A DNA stretch of 64,000 nt, from contig OX940863.1 in assembly GCA_954871525.1 (NCBI GenBank), forward strand, positions 22,208,001-22,272,000. Direction: 5' to 3'. A model generated the notes under the pieces. It had not been told where the DNA came from. It saw nothing but the letters and a program-made list of their open reading frames with translations, and searched no databases. The DNA comes from Parietaria judaica (lineage: Eukaryota; Streptophyta; Magnoliopsida; Rosales; Urticaceae). This document shows positions 5,123 through 54,570 of the stretch, one piece after another (position 1 is the stretch's first letter; each line of letters opens with the position of its first letter). The translations under genes and the position numbers were made by a program.

Positions 5123-6272
5123 TAAACAAACAAACAAAGTTGTTTGGTTTTGTTGATTGCGTGTTGAATAGACGCGTAGAAAGAAATGCACTAATAAAAA
5201 GAAAGAATATTTTGTTGTGTTGATCAAATTGGCATCAAAGTTTATTCACACGGCCAAGGTCAAAAAGAAGAAATACCAACTACTTATGAAGACAGCTATG
5301 TCTTTTCGATCGATTTACAAGCTGCATGCTGAAACTATTTGATTACTTTTTCTATCAACTTGTAATTTTATAAACAAAATTTTTTAAATGATTCTATGGA
5401 ATTTGGAATCTAATTAATATGATAGACTAGTTCCGATTTTAATTTGAAATTATGTGACATTGAAAAGTCAAAAGGTTTGAATATGAATGCATTGTATATT
5501 TCTGTTTTGTTAAAATAATTTTATGATTAAATTGTTATTACTTTAGAGAAACATTATTGCTTGAAGAGAAGATAATTTGTACGTAGTTTATCTTAAAGTA
5601 ACTGAGTATCACCAAATCATCAAATCAGTCAGGTAAATTAGTAAGAATAAAAAAAATATATACTTATGGGGCAATGGTATCTATATATATGTTCATACAC
5701 ACACTGCTTATAATGCATGGGGACATAATCATATTGTATCTAACGAATCAATTTTATGAAGAGAAAGTTTTGAATTGACAAATTAGTAGTAAATTAAACT
5801 TTATATTTTACCAAACAAAAAGAGGGAAAGACAAGACTTACGTTCATTAATCACATCAAACTACTGGTGTGGTGGAGTTGTAAGTTGAAAAAAATGACAT
5901 GCATGCATGTATTTAATAATCATTTGTGAATATATATATTTACTTAAATGTAAGACCAACATACTTTTGACACGTATGAAATCGTGCATGAATACGTTAA
6001 ATTCATTTGTTAGCTAGATTATTCTCGATAATTTTAAGCTAGGTATGAGATTTCTCGAAAGATCATTTAACGGCCTTTGAAAGATCATGAAACGAATAGT
6101 ACGTGAACAGGGAACTTTCAATTCACTAAAGAAATAAATGTGATAAATGGCGTACACAAAAGAAAAGTTTGACTAAGAATATCATTGGTTCTATAAAATA
6201 CATTTTTTATTAATATTTTAGGTAAAAATGAAAGCTTGAAATCTCGATAAGTGACTCAGATCTCAACTAAAT
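5123..6272. other. Intergenic AT-rich sequence, nothing recognised
   Basis: No conserved open frame, RNA gene or transposon end was found on either strand. Confidence 0.4.
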
Positions 6273-9826: not shown

Positions 9827-11902
<2,076 letters not shown>

Positions 11903-12025
11903 ATGATATTGCTAGGGTTTTGGCTATACATGGATGAATAATTATGTGTTGATCTTTGATCATTTTGAATTTTTGAGTGCTATAATTTTTACTTAGTGAT
12001 CTATGTACTTGTTACTTTTCTTTCA

Positions 12026-12650
12026 ATTGCGGCATAAATACCCCATATTTATAGTTTGTTTGAGTCAATATTCTCTATGTTTGTTTTTTCCGGACCCAAT
12101 GTTTTATTTTTTGTATATAATTTTCAGTCTTTGACACTAAATGAACAATAAACGTTAAGTTTCTCCGACATACTCGGCGGTATTGGTGATGCACTTGGTA
12201 GTCTCAACGGTGTAGGTGACGTATGATTGGTGGTGTCGGCTATACATTCGACATTCTCGACAGTGTCTGTGATGTAATCGGTGGTATTGGTGACGCACTC
12301 GGTTTTTGGACAGTGCCGGTGATGTATAAATGAGCGTTAGCGACAAAATTGGTAGTTTTGGTGACGACTAAGCGGTATCGGCGATGTATACTCGCGGTAT
12401 TGGGAGATTCATCTTAGTTTTTCAACAGTAAAAAAATGAATATATAAAACTAATAATCAATAAAATTTTATAAAATTGACACATACCACATACTTAACCG
12501 AAACTTAATGTTCATTGTTTATTTAGTGTCTAAAACTCAAAATTATATAAAAATATAACATCGGGTCTTTATGTCGGAAAAAAAAAATATAGAAATATGC
12601 TTCAAACAATTGATAGACATGGGATATTTATGCCTGCAAACATATCTCAA
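12026..12650. mobile_element. Foldback / long-TIR element downstream of the first peroxidase
   Basis: Imperfect inverted repeats of about 150 bp pair 12026-12160 (AATTGCGGCATAAATACCCC at the edge) with 12490-12650 (GGGATATTTATGCCTGCAAA). The edge resembles the family A-C Mutator-like ends (GCGGCAWAAAT). No convincing 9-bp duplication was found. The centre (12178-12407) is a degenerate tandem array of GGTGAYGTA / CGGTRKTNTCGG words. It starts about 120 bases after the stop codon, so it may lie inside the 3' UTR. Confidence 0.65.
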
Positions 12651-16357: not shown

Positions 16358-17765
<1,408 letters not shown>

Positions 17766-26275: not shown

Positions 26276-29200
26276 ATGCAGTACCTAAAATGCATGTCCT
26301 CAAACACAAAACTCACGAGAGTAATAAGACTCTTGTCGACCTCACGAGCAAGGCCGTGGTGGGAGCACGTGAGGCCTGCTTCTGCAGACCCCGTCTCCGC
26401 CGCTACCGAGGCTTTTCTCGCGGACACAAACCCCAACAAGATCAACCTCGGACTGGTAAGTTTGTTTCTATGTTTGTGAAGGTTTGATTTTTTTTTTATT
26501 TTTTTTTTAAATGAATGTAAGTGTTTTATAAATAGGGGGGTTATAGAGATGAAAATGGAAAGTTAGTTATTCTTCAGTGTGTTAGAGAGGCTGAGGCCAA
26601 GATTGCAGGTTCAGAGTTCTGGTAAGTTCTCCAAGCCCTCTTTTATTACACGGATAACTGCGGCATAAATATCAAAACTTTTAATTATGCAAAATAAATA
26701 TATAAGATTGTGAAATTTGTGTTTTTGATTGATTTTGTTCCATGTGTCTTCATTAATATTGAATTTTTTTAATATGTATAGAGCTCAAATTAACACTTAT
26801 AATTTATTTTTTTAATTTTTTGATATATCTCATGCTAAAGACATCCATAAGATTTTTTTATATATATGCTTAACGTCAACGAGGCATAACTAGAAGAGAA
26901 AAAAAAACAATTAAAAATGCGAATTTTCATAACTTTGGATATTTATTATCGAATATTTTGGATTATGCTGCACAAATTTAAAAAACTTGAGTACTTTTTG
27001 TCGCAATTACCTTTTATTTTATACACACGCGTGCACTATTACTTTGTTGCTATTGGTTGAAATATATTTGTAATTAGTAATTTAGTTCAATTTATAATAA
27101 TGGGTGTTATTTATGATAGATATAGTGGGTCTTTTTGTTGAATTTTTTTTTAAGTTCTTCATGTATGTATTTTTATCCTTTTCCTTTTTTTCCTTTTTTT
27201 TTTTCTATCAAGAAAAGCTCTAAGTACTTTCGGTGCAAACTTTCCTTTCATTTCCTGTTAATGTCGTTTATCGATACTAGTGTCGTTTACACATGTATTG
27301 AAATCGTATCGTTTACAAATATTAGTGTCGTTCCATTGAAGCTTAAATAGGCGTGCAAATTTTCTTCAATTCGCTGCTAAAATTTCTAACACATGTGCAG
27401 GGGGTCGACTTCTATGGCGGCCTGTGAAAATTTTGTCGAAGAGAGCCTGAATTTGGCTTACGAAAAACGCTCCGATGTGAGGGAACGACTCGCTGGAGTT
27501 CAAGCGCTCTCCGGCACGGGAGCTTGCCGGCTCTTCGCCGAGCTCCAAAGGCGCTCGTACCCGCGATCACCAATTTACTTGCCTGACCCAACTTGGCATA
27601 AGTAAGTTTCTAATGCGAGCTAACCTAATCAAACAATGTCAATATGTCTAGTTCATTTACTCAAAACTACGATAATTGAAATAAATTGTTGGAGCCACGT
27701 GATAAAAATAATATTAAGATAAAATACTCACTTTACTAAAGGGTCCGTTTGTTTACATTAAGATTAAGACGTCTGAATCTGAATGCACATCTGAATAATA
27801 AGATGTGACATCTGAATCTGAATGACAGATAATTAAGTGTGTTTTTTAAGATCTAAATGCAGATCTGAATAAAATTTTTCTTGTAAAAATTAAATTTTAT
27901 TATACACCTTTATATATACGGTTATTTTTAATAATAATAATAATTAAAATTAAAATAATTTATTTAATAATATCCAATTATTTTATTTTTCATAAAATTT
28001 CCATTGAAAATATTTTATAATAACACATAAATATAATAAATTTTTAAAAATTTATTTGAAAAATTGTACACTATAAAAAATTATATCGTCTATTAAATTA
28101 TTTATGATAATTAATTATATGTAAATTTTTTTAATGATTATTTAATTAATTATATTAATAAATTTGGAAATATGTAAATTTAAACGTAAATATATATATA
28201 TATATATATATATCCATTAAAAATATAATATATATATATATATATATATCCATTAAAAATATAATATATATATATATATATATCCATTAAAAATATATAA
28301 TATATATATATAAACTAATTGATATATTTGATAACTTTTAATTACAAATTCTTGATAATTTTTTTACTTTAATATATTTTTTAAACGTAATATATTTTTA
28401 TTATATTATAAATTTGGAAATATGTAAATTTAAACGTAAATACATATATATCCATTAAAAAAACGTAAATATATATATAAACTAATTGATATATTTGACA
28501 ACTTTTAATTACAAATTCCTAATAATTTTTTTATTTTAATTTTTTTAATATATTTTCTATATATTTTCGAAACTAATTTTTTTTAAAAAGCGTCAAAAAT
28601 ATATCTTCCCACCTATCAATGGATTCATCTAGTCGTAACCTTTCCAACGGTATATCATATGAGTCAATCCGATGCTCGGTTTAAGAGTTATGGAGTTTTA
28701 AAGTTTTAAGGAGTAGAGAGAAAAATAAATTTGGAGAGAGAATATGAGGAGAGAACTGAACGTGAAATGCCAAAATATAGCTCTTAATGGATAAGACTTG
28801 AGTGTAGATCCTACCGAATAAGTGGATAATCAGACTCATTAAGATGTTTAGTAAGAAAAAAAACAAATACACTTAATGACTCTAAATCTGACCCATTAAG
28901 ATTAAGAGGTTCATTAAGTGCAAACAAACACAGCCTAAAAAGAAAAAAGCATAAGGAATCGGTGGACCGAGTCTGTCTCGTAATAACCACGGTGTCTGTG
29001 CAGCCACAAGAGCATTTGGAGCGACGCCGGAATCACCCCAAGAACCTACCGGTACTACGATCCCGACACGAAGAGCTTGAACTTTGGTGGACTGATCAAC
29101 GATATCAAGGTCTTCGATGACATGAATGATCCGCGGCTTCATGTTTCAAGCTTTATGAAAAAATGAAACCCTAGTAGCTCACCGATTTACTTTGTTTTCT

Positions 29201-40838: not shown

Positions 40839-42239
40839 GGGATAATTACGGCAAATATACCCAACCTTTGGTCAAACTTCCCCCCGTGTACCCAACCTTT
40901 AAAATTGGCGGCAAAAATACCCAACCTGCGTTGACTGTGACTCTGGCATAAAAACGTTAATTTTTCCGTTAACATCCCTCATGTGGCCGTTAGCGGCAAA
41001 AATACCCAACCTTTTTTTAAAAAAAAAAACATTTTTTAATTTTTTAATTTATATATTTTTTACTTGATTAGTGATAATTACTTGAATTTCAAATACATGG
41101 AATAACACAAAAGTTAGTCAAAACATCAATTGATATCTTAATGTGCTTGTATAAGCTATATTTGTTGATAAAAGTCTTATTATTATGAGAAATTTTAAAC
41201 ACAATGTTACGTGTATTTAAGTAATTGATTTTTAATAAATTAATAAAAGGATAGTTATATAATTAATTTTTCTTTTTATTAAATAAAGTCAATTTTAGCC
41301 CGAGATATTCATCGAAAGTCTGTTTTCGCGAAATAAAGTGTCTAGATGTTTCCAGAAATATCAAAATACTCAAAAAGTCATTAAGTTTGCAAGAAATAGT
41401 CACGGAACGCTCCCGAAACCCTTAAAGTGGGCCAGGAGCACCTCAGGCGGCCCCACAGGCCCCACACGATCCACCACACGTCTCCTGCCCTCCTCACGTG
41501 CCCTCAGAAGGGCTTACGTCAACCTGATGACGTAAGCAGAGGCACGGGTGTGAGTTTTCATTGTGTTTCATAGCTTCCTTCGGCACTATTCATATTTCTT
41601 AGCAGCGTATTTAAGGGTACGGATTTTAATGGATCTCAAGGGAGGTCTTTTAGCCAACTATTACTAATCAAGCTTATTGATTATTGATAAATTTTTTTAC
41701 TGGTATATATTCTTAAGCCATTTTTTTTTTCAATACGGAGACATTGATTGAACTACCCATATCCGGATTTGGTTTTCTGGGTATCCGAAAATCACTACCC
41801 GTATCCCGATACGGAAATTCAGATACCTTTTTTCAAAACCATGTTCAAATTACTTAAAATACCCGTAACATTATGTATAAAATTTCTCATAATAATAAGA
41901 TTTTTATTACCAAATGTAGGTTATACAAGCACATTAAGAAATCAATTGATGTTTTGACTAACTTTTGTGTTATTCCATGTATTTGGAATTCAAGTAATTA
42001 TCACTAATCAAGTAAAAAAAATATAAATTAAAAAAATTAAAAAATGTTTTTTTTTTCAAAAAAAAAGGTTGGGTATTTTTGCCGCTAACGGCCACATGAG
42101 GGATGTTAACGGAAAAATTAACGTTTTTATGCCAAAGTCACAGTCAACGCAGGTTGGGTATTTTTGCCGCCAATTTTAAAGGTTGGGTACACGGGGGGAA
42201 GTTTGACCAAAGGTTGAGTATATTTGCCGTAATTATCCC
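40839..42239. mobile_element. Non-autonomous Mutator-like element, family B (1401 bp)
   Basis: Imperfect terminal inverted repeats of about 350 bp start GGGATAATTACGGCAAATAT. The exact 9-bp duplication TAATTCCAA flanks it at 40830-40838 and 42240-42248. Subterminal GGTTGGGTATTTTTGCCGC words repeat inside each arm. The roughly 660-bp unique centre includes a GC-rich block (41400-41560) and a TATCCGGAT / GGGTATCCG patch near 41758. There is no transposase. It could be a Pack-MULE-like capture; the source is unknown. Confidence 0.92.
41512..41537. promoter_or_regulatory. Perfect palindromic TGACGTAAGC pair inside element B
   Basis: GCTTACGTCA and TGACGTAAGC form a perfect 10-bp inverted repeat with a 6-base spacer. 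TGACG pairs are the core of as-1/ocs-type sites bound by TGA-class bZIP factors. A TATTTAA sits about 70 bases downstream (41608), so the block looks promoter-like. No transcript is known. Confidence 0.5.
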
Positions 42240-42424
42240 TAATTCCAATAGACCAGCCATGTGCATTCTTGGTGTTTGCCTTGTTTTATATGTATATATA
42301 TAGGATCAAACTAAGACATTTACATATACTAAATTATTAATAAACAAACTATTAGCTAAATTTGTTTGTGCCTACCTCTTTTCCTAATCACAAATTGATG
42401 TCCTAATATATAAAAAAAAAAATA

Positions 42425-42893
42425 GGGTTAATGACGGCAAAAATACCCAAAGTTTGGTCAAAGAATCCCTCGTGTACCCAAAGTTTAAAAATGGTGGTAA
42501 AAATACCCAAAGTCGCATTTGGGGAGTTGACCAGTCTATTCTTGTAACGCCGTTAACTTACCCGTTAACTATGGCCACGCGGACAAACGTGGGTTGCTGA
42601 CATAACAATTTTTGCCACATGGATGAGCCCAAATCAACCTCGTTTACGACAAAACAACAAATTAAACCCCTAATAAACACTATTTAATACAACTAATTGA
42701 ACCCCTAATGATTACACTTAACAAAACAAATTTGTCCACGTGGCCAGAGTTAACCGGTAAGTTAACGGCGTTATGAGAATGGAGTGGTCAACTCCCTAAA
42801 TGCGACTTTGGGTATTTTTGCCACCACTTTTAAACTTTAGGTACACGAGGGGTTCTTTGACCAAACTTTGGGTATTTTTGCCGTCATTAACCC
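42425..42893. mobile_element. Non-autonomous Mutator-like element, family A copy 2 (469 bp)
   Basis: Same length and sequence family as 1359-1827, with the interior reversed. Ends are GGGTTAATGACGGCAAAAAT and the inverted match. The 9-bp duplication AAAAAAATA lies at 42416-42424 and 42894-42902. Confidence 0.92.
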
Positions 42894-42925
42894 AAAAAAA
42901 TATAACATTGCGACCTTTATATTAA

Positions 42926-43722
42926 GGGATAATTGCGGCAATAATGCACAACTTTTGGTCAAGAGGGGTTTTAGGTCCCCAACCTTTCAAAGTGTGGGAA
43001 AAAAATACACAACGTTTGTTGAATGTAAAATCCGTTGGTCCTTCCGTTAGGGATGTTAAATTCTGCTGATGTGGCATCGTTAAACTGCCAAATGGACTGC
43101 CAACTTGTAATATTAATTACATAACCTAATAAATAGGAATAAATTAAAATATTTTAATTATGATTCAAATAATAAATTAAAACTTTAAATTAACGAGCAA
43201 TACTTATTTAACACGTAGTTCCTATTTTTAAACTCGTGCTTCAATATTATTCACATCTTTACTATGTCGTTTTTTAAATTACAGTTGTTTTTAATAATTG
43301 GTAGTTTTTCCAAAATTTTAGTCGTTTCTAATAAACCGTCGTTATGTAATCTTTGTAAATTTTAGTCTTGTTTAATAATCCGTTGTTTTTCAAAATTTTA
43401 GTCATGTTTGACGAAGAGTCTGTAAGATTTTTAGGGGGGAGTAAAAATTATTTATTTAATTTAAAGTATTAATTTTTTTTTGAATCATAATTAAAATATG
43501 ATTTAATTTATTCTTATTAATTAAGTTATGTAATTAATATTACAGTTGACAGTCCATTTGGCAGTTTAACGATGCTACATCAGCAGAATTTAACATCCCT
43601 AACGGAAGGACCAACGAATTTTACATTCAACAAACGTTGTGTATTTTTTCCCACACTTTGAAAGGTTGGGGACCTAAAACCCCTCTTGACCTAAGGTTGT
43701 GCATTATTGCCGCAATTAACCC
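42926..43722. mobile_element. Non-autonomous Mutator-like element, family C copy 1 (797 bp)
   Basis: Terminal inverted repeats of about 260 bp begin GGGATAATTGCGGCAATAAT. The exact 9-bp duplication TTATATTAA lies at 42917-42925 and 43723-43731. The unique centre is rich in TAGTCGTTT / GTCGTTTTT words. The left end lies 32 bases from family A copy 2. Confidence 0.92.
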
Positions 43723-44000
43723 TTATATTAATGCTTGGAACACATAAAATCTAATCGGCACGAATAATATTAGTTAAGTTATGATAATTTGTATAAGCTT
43801 GAGGGTCGTTCGAGGCAAGGTCTGATTTTGAGGCCTAACTGACGTTAGTGTCCCACGCGGACTAGGGCTAGAGGAGTAAAAACCGGGTTCCAAATGTGAT
43901 TCTGTTACAGAATTAAAAGATAATAAAACCTCACGACCTATGACCACTGAATAGCAAAGTAATTTTCTGACTTATTATATATCAATACACCACTTGAAAA

Positions 44001-44690
44001 CAGGGCCGGCCAAGATTTTTTCATGTTTTGTCGATATCCTAAGTTAAATAAATTTTTTGGGCCCCTTCAACGCAAGGTTCGACTTTTCCACGATTATCTT
44101 CGATTATCCGTCTTGCCGGTAGTTATCGGCAAGACGGCCATGCTAGTACTTTTCCATGATTTTTGCCGAAAATCGGCAAACATCTTGAAAAATAACAAAA
44201 ATATGGTACTTTTAAAAAAAAATTGCATTTTTCGATGATTTTATTCGAGTATTTACATATGTGAGAGTGAGACTATATTTTATTTACCTATGTTTGAGTA
44301 TGAAATGATTTTATTTTTGGCATTTTTAATGTTTTATCAACATTATAAACTTAGTAAATATATTCTTAAAAATATTTTAGTGATTTTTCATCGATAATCC
44401 TCGATAAGTGTCGATAATCTGTCGATAATCATCGAAAAGTATCGGTAATCGGTAAGCTACAGTATTATTAGTTTTCCGTCGATAATCCGGTAAGTTATCG
44501 ATTAATCTGTTGATAACGGCAAGCGATTTATCGGCAAGTTCGGTAAATTGAACCTTGCCTTCAAGTATTTTTTTTTTCATATTTAATTTATAAAAAATAA
44601 TATATATATATATATCTATTAAAAAATTAAGGCATTACATTTGGAGAGCTCGAGGTGCCAACCTCCCTATAACCCAGGCCTGCCGGCTTG
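44001..44690. mobile_element. Possible older hAT-type element split by a nested insertion
   Basis: CAGGGCCGGCCAAG at 44001 looks like a common plant hAT end. CCAGGCCTGCCGGCTTG at 44668 could be its degenerate right end. The element at 44071-44557 sits inside. The inverted match is weak. Confidence 0.35.
44071..44557. mobile_element. hAT-like element with CAAGGTTC ends and GATAATC subterminal array
   Basis: CAAGGTTCGACTTTT (44073) faces AAATTGAACCTTG (44557). CCTTCAA flanks both sides (44064-44070, 44558-44564), offset by two bases. Near the right end TCGATAATC-like words recur at least five times. Near the left, GATTATCTTCGATTATCCG is the inverted version. Such subterminal arrays are typical transposase-binding sites of hAT elements. 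Confidence 0.65.
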
Positions 44691-45187
44691 TCCTTGCCTA
44701 AAAATATAATACTTAAATAGTTTTTATTTTACAACAAATTGAAGCTCTAAATTTGCCAATCATTTATGATTCTATTTTTATTTTCAAAAAGAAGAGAGAA
44801 AAGTTTGAAATATCACTATCATGAATCATGATCATCCTTCCTTCAAATAAAAGGTCCATGTATGTATGTACGTTTGAGGTTCAAAATTAATTTGATTGTA
44901 AGGTTGCAACAACACCGAACTTGACCAAACTTCCTTTTGCAGCATAAGCAACGGTCATTTATGTTTATTTGCTTTTATTTGGGATTAATGACTGAGGTCA
45001 TTTTTATTCACCATTTATTGGCTAATCATTTATCAATTTATTCTGTTTAATTACAAATTTTATCGAACAAATGGTTCGACCTAAAAAAAAAAGTATGTCG
45101 TTTTTTTTTTTTTTTTTTTTTTTGAAAACAAGTATGTCGTTTTCTGCTTCAAGTGAACAAAAACAAAAACAGAAGACAACTAAAAGA

Positions 45188-45481
45188 GGGTTAAGTCTGG
45201 TATAAATACCCATCTTAGAACAAAATTAGTAGCAATTTAGGGGTGAAAAGTCCTTTTTTTTTTCGTAATCGAAACCGGAACCGAGACAAACCTTAAAATC
45301 TTGAATTTTTTCAGAACAAAATTTGGGACAAAATTTAAAATTCAAGTCTAAAAAATATGCTACCATAGCATATAACCAACCTTGCCACAAAACATTCTTT
45401 GAGTAGTATTGCCGCCACTTTTTGAGGTTGAGTATATTTCACGAAATTTGACTATAAGTTAGATATTTATGCCGCAATTAA
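45188..45481. repeat. Possible decayed relative of the Mutator-like families
   Basis: GGGTTAAGTCTGGTATAAATACC on the left faces GATATTTATGCCGCAATTAA on the right. Internal GTATTGCCGCCACTTTTTGAGG recalls family A wording. No target duplication was seen. Confidence 0.4.
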
Positions 45482-45600
45482 TAAAAAAAAAATGAGTCAT
45501 CTGTACACTTTCTCGCTCTCTTACATAAGGTGATTATATGTATTTAAATATAAAAAGAAGACAGTCATTTGGAAAATTAAAAAATCAGATAATTAAAATA

Positions 45601-46399
45601 GAGTTAATTGCGGCAATAATGCACAATCTTTAGTCAACAGGGGTTTTAGGTCCCCAACCTTTCAAAGTGTGGGAAAAAATACACAACGTTTGTTGAATGT
45701 AAAATTCGTTGGTCCTTCCGTTAAGAATGTTAAATTCTGCTGATGTGGCATCGTTAAACTGCCAAATAGACTGCCAACTTGTAATATAAATTACATAACC
45801 TAATTAATAAGATTAAATTAAATCATATTTTAATTATGATTAAAAAAATAAATTAAAATTTTAAATTAACGAATAATACTTATTTAACGCGTAGTTCTTA
45901 TTTTAAACTAGTGCTTCAATATTATTCACATCTTTACTATGTCATTTTATAAATTAAAGTTGTTTTTAATAATCAGTCGTTTTTCCAAAATTTTAGTCGT
46001 TTCTAATAAACTCTCGTTATGTAATCTTTGCAAATTTTAGTCGTGTTTAATAATTCGTCGTTTTTCAAAATTTTAGTCATGTTCGACGAAGAGTCTGTTA
46101 GATTTTTAGGGGGGAGTAAAAATTATTTATTTAATATAAAGTATTAATTTGTTTTTTGAATCATAATTAAAATATGATTTAATTTATTCTTATTAATTAA
46201 GTTATGTAATTAATATTACAAGTTGGCAGTCCATTTGGCAGTTTAACGATGTCACATCAGCAGAATTTAACATCCCTAACGGAAGGACCAACGGATTTTA
46301 TATTCAACAAACGTTGTGTATTTTTTCCCACACTTTGAAATGTTGGGGACCTAAAACCCATGTTGACCAAAGATTGTGCATTATTGCCGCAATTAACCC
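45601..46399. mobile_element. Non-autonomous Mutator-like element, family C copy 2 (799 bp)
   Basis: Nearly the same as 42926-43722 in both arms and centre, same orientation. The flanks ATTAAAATA and TTAAAAATA match 7 of 9, so this insertion is probably older. It lies about 760 bases upstream of the WEB-family start codon. Confidence 0.88.
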
Positions 46400-51639: not shown

Positions 51640-54570
51640 CAGTGGCGAAGCCAGAAACTGTCGAAAGGGGGGGGGGGGGGGGGGGGGGCGAAAAGTAACA
51701 TACAATAATAGTCAAAATAAGATATGATATTAAAATGTAGAACATAAATTTCATTACAATTGTCCTCTACGAGTTTTCATGTTCTGAAAATGATTCATGA
51801 TGGGCTCGTCATAAATTTCATTAAAAACATCTGTCTCAACGTATATAAATAAAAGATCATTTAGCCAGTCGTCTCCCATTTTGTTGCGTAAGTTGATCTT
51901 CACAAACTTCATAGAAGAAAAGGATCTCTCAACCGAAGCCGTAGCAATAGGTAAAATGAAAGCTAACGTCAAGAGTCGATAAACTAACGGAAAGACTTTC
52001 TCTTTTCCTGTCTCCACCATTATCCGTGTAAGGTCGCCAATTTTTTCTATTCCACAAAAGCGATCATCTAAACGAGCATCCTCTATGTAATTTTAAAGCT
52101 GAACTTCTAGCAGAATACGCTCCGCACTTGAAAAATCCATCGGGTAGAACTCAGCTAACTTGACTAACTTCATCACGTCGAAAGCCGCAAATAAATCTTT
52201 AGGATTCAAACATGCTACGCAAAGTAATAACTCGGTGGTTGCCTCGTTGAATCGATCATTTAATTCGTCAAGTTGAGTATCAATCACGGCATTCACAACT
52301 TCAAACTTATAATGCTCCAAGTTACTCCTGTCGTTGATTTTTCGCTTTCCACGACTAGGTACAAATGGACTCTCCATGCTCGGCATATCAATACTATAAT
52401 GAGTACAAAAAGTAGAGACTTTTTCAAAGAGAGCGTCCCATCCGTTATCTCTCATATCCTGCAATCGCTTCTTGCATACTTTCACCAAACTCATAGCATT
52501 AATAATATCTTGATCCTTCCTTTGAAGAGCTTTTGACAAATCATCTGTAATTCCTAGCAAGCTTATCATCAAATGCAAGCTTAACACAAATTCAAATGTC
52601 AACATTGTTGCGTACCCGTTTCGCGCTTGAATCCTTGTAGTTGAATTGTTTGACTCATTAGAAAGGTACTCAAGTACCTCGGTTACAGCCGAAAACATAG
52701 TGAGCACGCTAATCAAAGAGCCATAGTGTGAACCCCAACGAGTATCTCCTGCACATTGAAGATTAGTTTCTTGATTAAGGCCTCGCCCACTTTCAATCAC
52801 GCCATCATCGACCGCTTCAAGAACCAAACCCTTGTGCTTTTCTCGGAGAATGTCACAACGTATTGCTGAAGATCCAACCACATTTATTATTCCATTCACA
52901 ATAAGAAATAAATTTTCCACATAGTCATTGTTTTTTGCGAGTCCCACCAAAGCTAGTTGAAGTTGATGAGCAAAACAATGGATATAAAAAGCACTTTGGT
53001 TTTCCTTTAAGATGAGAGCTTTAAGGCCATTGAACTCTCCTTGCATATTACTTGCTCCGTCGTAGCCTTGTCCTCGTAATCTAGACAAACTTAATCCATG
53101 CCGAGCAAACATTTTGTCGATGGCGGCCTTTAATGACAAAGAAGTGGTGCTAGTGACATGCTCTATTCCCATAAACCGCTCAACTATTTCTCCATGCTTG
53201 TTTACATAGCGTAATATGACAGCCATTTCCTTCATCGAAACATCGCGCGACTCGTCAAGCAAAATAGAGAACAACGAATCACCAAGATCATTCAATATCG
53301 CTTTCATTGTTACCGCCGCACAAGCACTCACACAATCTTTCTGAATATCTGATGATGTTAACTTGCAATTTCCAGGAGCATTTTCTAAGGCAACGGCCTT
53401 GATCTCGGGATCGTGTTTAGCTAGAACCTTCAAAATCTCAATAAAGTTACCTCGACTGTTCGAACTTTGAGATTCATCATGGCCTCGAAATGCCATTCCT
53501 TGTCGTAAAAGAAGTCGAACCACCTCCAATGTACCACCCAATCTTATTCGGTATTCATTGCGAACGTTTTCTGTTTGCCTTGCAAAAACTTCTTCGAGAT
53601 GTTGCTTGTGGTTTTTCAGAGATTCATACTTTGCATAAGCTCGATTATGAGAACTTGAAGGACCTCCAACATGTTGATGTAGTCTTTATTTTTTTCGAAA
53701 AGTCTGAAATCCCTGTCCAACAAAAGTGTCACCACCACCTTTGTCACTACTTGGTTTGAACAAGTAACAACATAAACAATAGACCTTATTCTTATCAATG
53801 CTATACTCTAGCCAACTACTGAATTCATCGTACCAAGAAATGTTGAATCGTCGTCCTTTAACCAATTTAAATCGACGCTCTTTAGGTTGACAAGGCCCTC
53901 TTTGAACGTACGTTCGACGAACTAGATCAACTAGATTACGATCGAAATCTTCAATCGGAGTTCGCAATCCCGGATCACTTGGTAAAACTTCCAGATCAAA
54001 ATCCACTTTCGTTAGTTTACTGGCACTACTTTCCCCCTCTTCCCCTTTTCTCTTAAAATATTTATGCATGATTATCTTTGATACCCTATAATAAAGCATA
54101 AAAAAAATAATCAACATAACATATCAATTAAATCATCATAAATACCAAATAAAATCAAAATTTCTCATAAAAATGAGTAACTTTTAATCCATAATTCAAA
54201 TAAAGTATAACACAAATCACACGGATCCATTATAAGAACCCCATCTAATTTATATCATCATTTCATGATTTAGTAATTTAGTAGCAAGCCATAAGTAATT
54301 TAGGAAATTAGGGTTTAGATTAAATAAGAAGAAAATTGCCTAAAAAATTAGAGGCAGTCGACGAGAATAGGGAAGGCAAGAGAAAAATGAGATTAGGTTG
54401 AAGGTGAGGGTACGATCAGTCATGGCCCAATCAAGTGGTATTTTGCCCCACTTGTTTAAGAATTAAAAAAATAAAAATTAAGTGGGGGCTATTTATGGGC
54501 TATTAAGATATCATGGCCCAATCAAGTGGGGCTTGTTGCACCCAGTTGAGCTCAAGTGGCCTCGCCACTG
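51640..54570 (-). mobile_element. Nearly complete hAT transposon (2931 bp)
   Basis: It begins CAGTGGCGAAGCCAG and ends GGCCTCGCCACTG, with 8-bp duplication ATAATAAT (51632-51639, 54571-54578). The duplication sits at the edge of a TAA microsatellite, so it is partly ambiguous. It contains one long minus-strand transposase frame. Subterminal features include a run of 22 G (51667-51688) and a 19-bp direct repeat TCATGGCCCAATCAAGTGG at 54420 and 54511. Termini resemble those at 22123 and 36410, so it or a relative could have mobilised them. Confidence 0.93.
51754..54069 (-). pseudogene. hAT transposase (TTF-type finger, DUF4371, dimerisation domain) with two in-frame stops
   Basis: One frame of 772 codons from ATG 54069 to the stop at 51754, broken only by TAA at 53686-53688 and TAA at 52093-52095. 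There are no frameshifts. N-terminal part: HKYFKRKGEEGESS, a TTF-type zinc-finger-like region (YCLCCYLFKP) and GQGFQTFRKK before the first stop. After it the frame resumes with HVGGPSSSHNRAY, then the DUF4371/RNase-H-like core (SILLDESRD, GYDGASNMQG, FYIHCFAHQLQLALVGL, DTRWGSHY). After the second stop it resumes with NYIEDARLDDR and the hAT dimerisation block (ATASVERSFSSMKFVK). ATAG, an intron-type acceptor, lies just upstream of the start, suggesting a leader intron. Product class is secure. Activity is doubtful unless the stops are bypassed. Confidence 0.92.

Follow-up and report, generated by a model that had tools for sequence, protein, structure and literature searches.

A common 90-bp end with three spaced words in Mutator-like element families of Parietaria judaica

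How many enzymes serve short DNA elements that have unrelated interiors and similar outer ends? This question is raised by a stretch of 64,000 nucleotides of Parietaria judaica (C5:22208001-22272000 of a 538.7-Mb assembly; hereafter the window). The original prediction described five elements of three families (A, B and C) in the window, four of them with exact 9-bp duplications. It proposed that one transposase recognises their outer ~35 bp and mobilises many cargos. All five elements were located and are real. We think it likely that A, B and C, together with the relatives D (in the window) and G, H and I (elsewhere in the genome) described below, are non-autonomous Mutator-like elements (MULEs). 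Their end of ~90 bp would be served by related trans-acting MuDR-type transposases, probably one for each class of a short word that is repeated in that end. The five elements are as follows.

1359-1827 (469 bp): element A1, non-autonomous MULE resembling a miniature inverted-repeat transposable element (MITE); arms ~163 bp; words at 19/50/79 in both ends; 9-bp duplication TTTTATCTT, 9/9
40839-42239 (1401 bp): element B; arms ~390 bp; duplication TAATTCCAA, 9/9
42425-42893 (469 bp): element A2, in the opposite orientation to A1; duplication AAAAAAATA, 9/9
42926-43722 (797 bp): element C1; arms ~285 bp; duplication TTATATTAA, 9/9
45601-46399 (799 bp): element C2; words at 19/50/79 in both ends; duplication 7/9

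The duplications of A1, A2, B and C1 are exact, as predicted, and C2 matches at 7/9; a duplication of 9-11 bp is characteristic of MULEs. Among 300,000 pairs of 9-mers drawn at random from this genome (the window plus the fetched loci), 9/9 occurs at 8.3e-5 and at least 8/9 at 5.4e-4. The arms (163, ~390 and ~285 bp) are in the range of long terminal inverted repeats (TIRs; ~100-500 bp). The A type (469 bp) has the features of a MITE, being short, non-coding and high-copy with a TIR and a duplication. No Pfam match was found in the single overlapping open reading frame (ORF) scanned (1700-2017), and exact A-type ends paired 446-455 bp apart recur among the 100 tip matches listed on contig C1. 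A1 and the reversed A2 are identical at 432/469 positions, and the elements C1 and C2 at 748 of 795 aligned bases with 6 gaps. Thus, the copies are not very young.

The extent of the common end was examined using one representative end per family (A2 right, B left and C1 right; 3 of the 10 ends). Over positions 1 to ~90, the three family pairs are identical at 72/86, 63/88 and 63/86 bases, and each score was reached by 0 of 500 dinucleotide shuffles. The between-family identity is 72-84%, and 16-28% of the aligned bases differ. In the inner arms (91-165), the observed scores were reached by 12 (A-B, marginal), 81 and 93 of 500 shuffles, and the similarity of positions 91-280 and of the interiors is at chance level. 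The boundary of the shared end at ~90 bp is sharp. These results indicated that the end pattern predicted for the outer ~35 bp is indeed common to the families, but that its length is ~90 bp. The centres are unrelated, as had been stated, and the inner arms are mostly different except for the marginal A-B stretch.

Within this end, a ATACCCAA-like word with at most two mismatches is located near element positions 19, 50 and 79 in all ten ends, with word 3 at 80 rather than 79 in one end (C1 left). The shared ends of B, A2 and C1 are placed as follows.

40839-40928, plus strand: B left shared end; words at 19, 50, 79
42150-42239, minus strand: B right shared end; words at 19, 50, 79
42425-42514, plus strand: A2 left shared end; words at 19, 50, 79
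42804-42893, minus strand: A2 right shared end; words at 19, 50, 79
42926-43015, plus strand: C1 left shared end; words at 19, 50, 80
43633-43722, minus strand: C1 right shared end; words at 19, 50, 79

Outside the five elements and D, the word triad is found in 0 of 118,252 window frames with one-base tolerance. B, alone among A, B and C, has a fourth, exact word at element position 164. Separately, the linker between words 1 and 2 of C (end positions 37-50, AGAGGGGTTTT) looks as though it had been inverted locally, since it is similar to the A consensus (AACCCCTC) in reverse complement (C1 42926-43722 compared with A2 42425-42893).

We infer the following mechanism. The functional end would be the outer ~90 bp, in which a tip of the type GGGwTAATnnCGGCAA is followed by three ATACCCAA-like words spaced at ~30 bp, or three helical turns. 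With such spacing, the words would all face roughly the same side of the helix. They may be the binding sites of a MuDR-type transposase, which would be supplied in trans by autonomous elements outside the window. The enzyme would cut at the tip, and insertion, here into AT-rich DNA, would be staggered by 9 bp. As the end alone would be constrained, the inner arms and the cargo may have diverged or been replaced beyond recognition. The sharp 90-bp limit, the constant word spacing and the free inner divergence are the trace to be expected if an enzyme that binds the ends imposes constraint. Groups of families would be served by related transposases, of which there is probably one for each word class, and ends would be exchangeable within a group.

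Looser relatives had been suggested at 12026, 26650 and 45188. They were scored using a profile trained on the ten window ends, with 20 shuffled windows as the control. The right end of the relative at 45188 proved to be real, whereas the candidate at 12026 is marginal (9.8 bits, against 9.1 for the best of the 20 shuffled windows) and that at 26650 (4.1 bits) is at chance. The candidates at 26650, 31148 and 59415 scored inside the range of the shuffled windows and were rejected. The two retained relatives are as follows.

45188-45484: degenerate relative D; right end 33 bits, E 2.6e-9, word triad 19/50/79; left end eroded, no duplication preserved
12020-12645: possible eroded relative F, weak; inverted arms 12110-12163/12500-12553 (87%), GGCATAAATAyCC-like tip on both sides

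The middle of F contains short GGTGATGTA/TCGGTGGT-like repeats.

Such ends are abundant in the genome. The exact 22-base tip occurs 2,329 + 2,314 = 4,643 times in the 539 Mb genome, and the reversed controls occur 0 + 0 times. The H-type tip occurs 163 + 175 times (controls 0 + 0). Paired elements were sampled in the window and 54 loci (L011-L065 without L017, which overlaps L016) using the profile from the ten window ends. Most loci were picked for holding such ends and the profile is window-trained, and the counts therefore describe these types and are no census. Ends starting after profile position 9 or stopping before 50, non-adjacent pairs and pairs outside 250-2500 bp were excluded. Among the 50 paired elements, 31 have a duplication of 9/9 and 40 of at least 8/9, against backgrounds of 0.00046 and 0.0033 (one-base tip offset allowed). 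By type, there are 31 A elements (21 at 9/9), 7 B elements (6 at 9/9; two of 1401 bp and five of 481-489 bp), 5 C elements (2 at 9/9), 2 G elements (1 at 9/9), one H element (8/9, none at 9/9) and one I element (9/9). The three mixed-type pairs are unclear/A (8/9), A/B (7/9) and B/G (8/9). The 50-element list does not include element J (L037:2466-2936, 9/9), which was observed in addition. The full triad is present in 94 of 114 near-complete ends, including those of the window (two-base tolerance; ends starting after profile position 9 or stopping before 75 excluded). Ten viral-contig matches to the 22-base tip were put down to chance, as none extends into the rest of the end. The longer end pattern gave 0 matches in the genome-contig collection and 0 in viral contigs. 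Six end strings had no match in the papers searched by sequence string; no repeat library was compared, and the family is not claimed to be unpublished.

The B/G pair is a hybrid element (L022:2652-3340, 689 bp). Its first 371 bp are B-like (333/364 aligned bases, 11 gap positions). Its last 87 bp are G-like (82/87) and no further, so that the likeness stops at the limit of the shared end. The two ends of the hybrid resemble each other only over positions ~6-87 (62/79), and the flanking duplication is TAATATATA/TATTATATA (8/9). If the hybrid is real, one transposition event used the ends of two families. It is the best sign that one transposase can use the ends of both B and G. That the G-like part is exactly the outer 87 bp would also be expected if 90-bp ends had spread by recombination onto unrelated bodies, their similarity reflecting recent exchange and not constraint. 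We consider such spread improbable. The inner arms of each family are inverted repeats too (total arms 160-390 bp), which goes beyond a simple end swap, and the 72-84% identity of the A, B and C ends is not that of a recent exchange.

In the ends, the two letters that directly follow each word agree in 11 of 30 within-family pairs (ten families, permutation p 0.0005), and the same-position control gives 18 of 135 (p 0.38). The letters are AG in A, CC in B, mostly CC in C and G, and mostly TG in I. In the hybrid they are CA, CC and CG on the left and CC, CC and CA on the right. We treat the within-family letters as a lead. They bear on the proposal that all families are mobilised by a single transposase through recognition of the outer end. 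The 90-bp end common across families, the hybrid with its duplication, and a tip and spacing that are alike in most of the observed end types agree with that proposal. The words, however, vary from family to family and tend to be alike within a family. Only one pair of ends from two families has an 8/9 duplication, and it combines B and G, which are both of the CC class, and the A-left/B-right neighbour pair (L020) reaches 7/9 only, with a B remnant between two A ends. A single enzyme for all families is thus rather doubtful. What stands of the original prediction is the Mutator-like ends with 9-bp duplications and one common outer pattern around unrelated interiors; the hybrid supports a shared enzyme for at least B and G. 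That one enzyme serves all would go further, and the co-variation of letters within families fits class-specific enzymes equally well.

The same letters would be expected if each family had its own autonomous partner, the end similarity then being due to the common descent of transposase and end together. The 16-28% of differing bases in the outer ~90 bp of A, B and C is also in agreement with this. The B/G hybrid argues against private partners. We regard such partners as possible, with the chances somewhat below even. For the related class-specific transposases that we favour, a more detailed scheme would be a readable end code. Its elements would be a three-word frame at 19/50/79, letters kept by each family, one transposase variant per class and 90-bp ends swapped within a class only. 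We put this scheme forward as tentative.

Several points weigh against related transposases serving these ends. The hybrid is a single case with an 8/9 duplication in TA-rich DNA, and it could have arisen as a fusion by deletion, its duplication being due to chance. The word-letter test, in which the letters of the 10 families were picked after inspection and several families come from single ends or pairs, gives p 0.036 when restricted to A, B and C and p 0.053 for A, B, C and D. For some ends (e.g. L028, L029, L039, L040, L041 and L055), the stretch that was fetched contains no partner, and these could belong to longer elements. The MuDR-type transposase looked for between such ends was not found in the transposase loci read or in the fetched loci. 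In none of the six transposase loci (L059-L064), for which full boundaries of the transposase elements were not established, was the element seen to be bounded by an end of this type within the stretch that was read. Eight ORFs from five of the six loci gave no tblastn match at 1e-4 in the window, L011-L058 and L065, in a search that also misses the MULE-domain frame of L065. According to this miss, the test is non-exhaustive, and the autonomous partner is unseen rather than absent. No partner for any family was found in ~246 kb of loci picked for their ends, which neither supports nor excludes family-own partners.

The transposase loci came from a search for the MULE domain PF10551. There were 723 first-look candidates in the genome, and the 150 that were scored and listed are all over the cut-off. 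In the case of L065 (C3:5708139), the MULE match is located 5 kb from an H-type end. The H element is closed (1,013 bp, 8/9) and the match is in a separate 663-aa frame, which we take to resemble FRS/FAR1, and the locus was rejected as the partner. L059 and L060 were also rejected. Their alignable stretch starts at 1494 and 1448, respectively, and runs to or near the fetched edge; only the left boundary is visible and it differs from the shared end. The A-like end at 343 of L060 is outside the transposase element. A large MULE is thus present as two copies that are 94% identical, at L059 1494-8201 and L060 1448-7998; it has an open frame of 729 aa, and other frames lie downstream of it. A MULE match of similar score is present at C5:22340722, ~69 kb from the window. 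L061 and L064 were rejected, because short-repeat arrays surround the transposase and an own end of the shared type was not seen. L064 has an end of the shared type close to its transposase element but not as part of it, and a small separate element is located at ~5474-5822. The MULE transposase genes of L061 and L064, presumably VANDAL-like, are related (85% protein identity over 243 residues) and lie beside short direct repeats; long inverted ends of their own were not seen in 6.2 kb. L062 and L063 have no end of the shared type above chance within 3 kb and were rejected.

In maize Mu, non-autonomous elements have unrelated interiors on shared long inverted ends and 9-bp duplications (PMC3276141), and the elements described here are alike in both respects. 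The reading is thus not new in kind. The maize Mu elements share ~220 bp of end (PMC3276141), whereas here ~90 bp are followed by family-specific arms. MURA binds a ~32-bp site in the maize end (PMC3310237). The maize MuDR tip GAGATAATTGC (PMC2563033) matches the C1 left end at 10/11 and then at 4/14; B matches at 9/11 and A at 7/11, with 1-4 matches in the next 14 bases across ends. Three other ten-of-eleven matches to the maize tip are present elsewhere in the window, and the tip alone is therefore weak evidence. Compared with maize Mu proper (~220-bp end, >85% identity), six ends match the first 25 bases of MuDR TIRA at 7-10/11 and then at 1-4/14, and the elements are not of that group.

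In tomato, the PM-ZIBP MULEs have repeated motifs inside the end, and one TIR family is found on elements with distinct internal regions (PM-ZIBP, type 2-46; PMC3310237). Repeated end motifs and one end type with distinct interiors are also seen here. The tomato tandem-end MULEs duplicate the whole end, whereas here three short words are ~30 bp apart within one end. MuTAnT of Medicago truncatula (PMC4486113) and Falling Stone (FaSt) of Prunus (PMC12071656) are likewise short Mutator-like elements with long arms and 9-bp duplications, but the MuTAnT tip matches only at 6/16, or at 7-9/15 when shifted by one (PMC4486113). The shared outer pattern appears to exceed the tip common to MULEs, for which the outside yardsticks are the two short tips of MuDR and MuTAnT, FaSt being likened by description. 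In a published model, Pack-TYPE elements gain DNA through neighbouring insertions (PMC8903248), and a Pack-TYPE-like exchange of ends would be consistent with the hybrid and with the dense clustering of elements at 40.8-46.4 kb.

Other features of the window were as follows.

41400-41560: GC-rich patch in the centre of B (65% GC at 41400-41499), possibly captured DNA
51754-54123, minus strand: hAT-type transposase
11495-11899 and 17100-17762, same strand: two peroxidase gene pieces, probably a tandem pair

Three ORFs of B were tested and have no Pfam match; a captured fragment of a host gene would be the mark of a Pack-MULE. The hAT locus is made up of three open pieces that share one frame and are interrupted by single stop codons; hAT dimerisation and DUF4371 domains were matched in two of them, which adjoin each other, and the third has no match in Pfam. 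A1, the element predicted to be in an intron, is located downstream of an exon that codes for an ACT-like domain as in plant bHLH factors (749-1018). As the domain match ends at model position 61 of 75, an intron around A1 is plausible, but it is unproved. No Rfam matches were found at the gathering score.

The system is known in kind, as Mutator-like; what is worth following is how the words are arranged, the letters kept within families, and the hybrid. To our knowledge, end recognition by MULE transposases has been mapped mainly in maize. With three-word ends, thousands of copies and at least one natural hybrid, end specificity could be resolved from one genome. Such a group of families would explain how one enzyme lineage carries many cargos.

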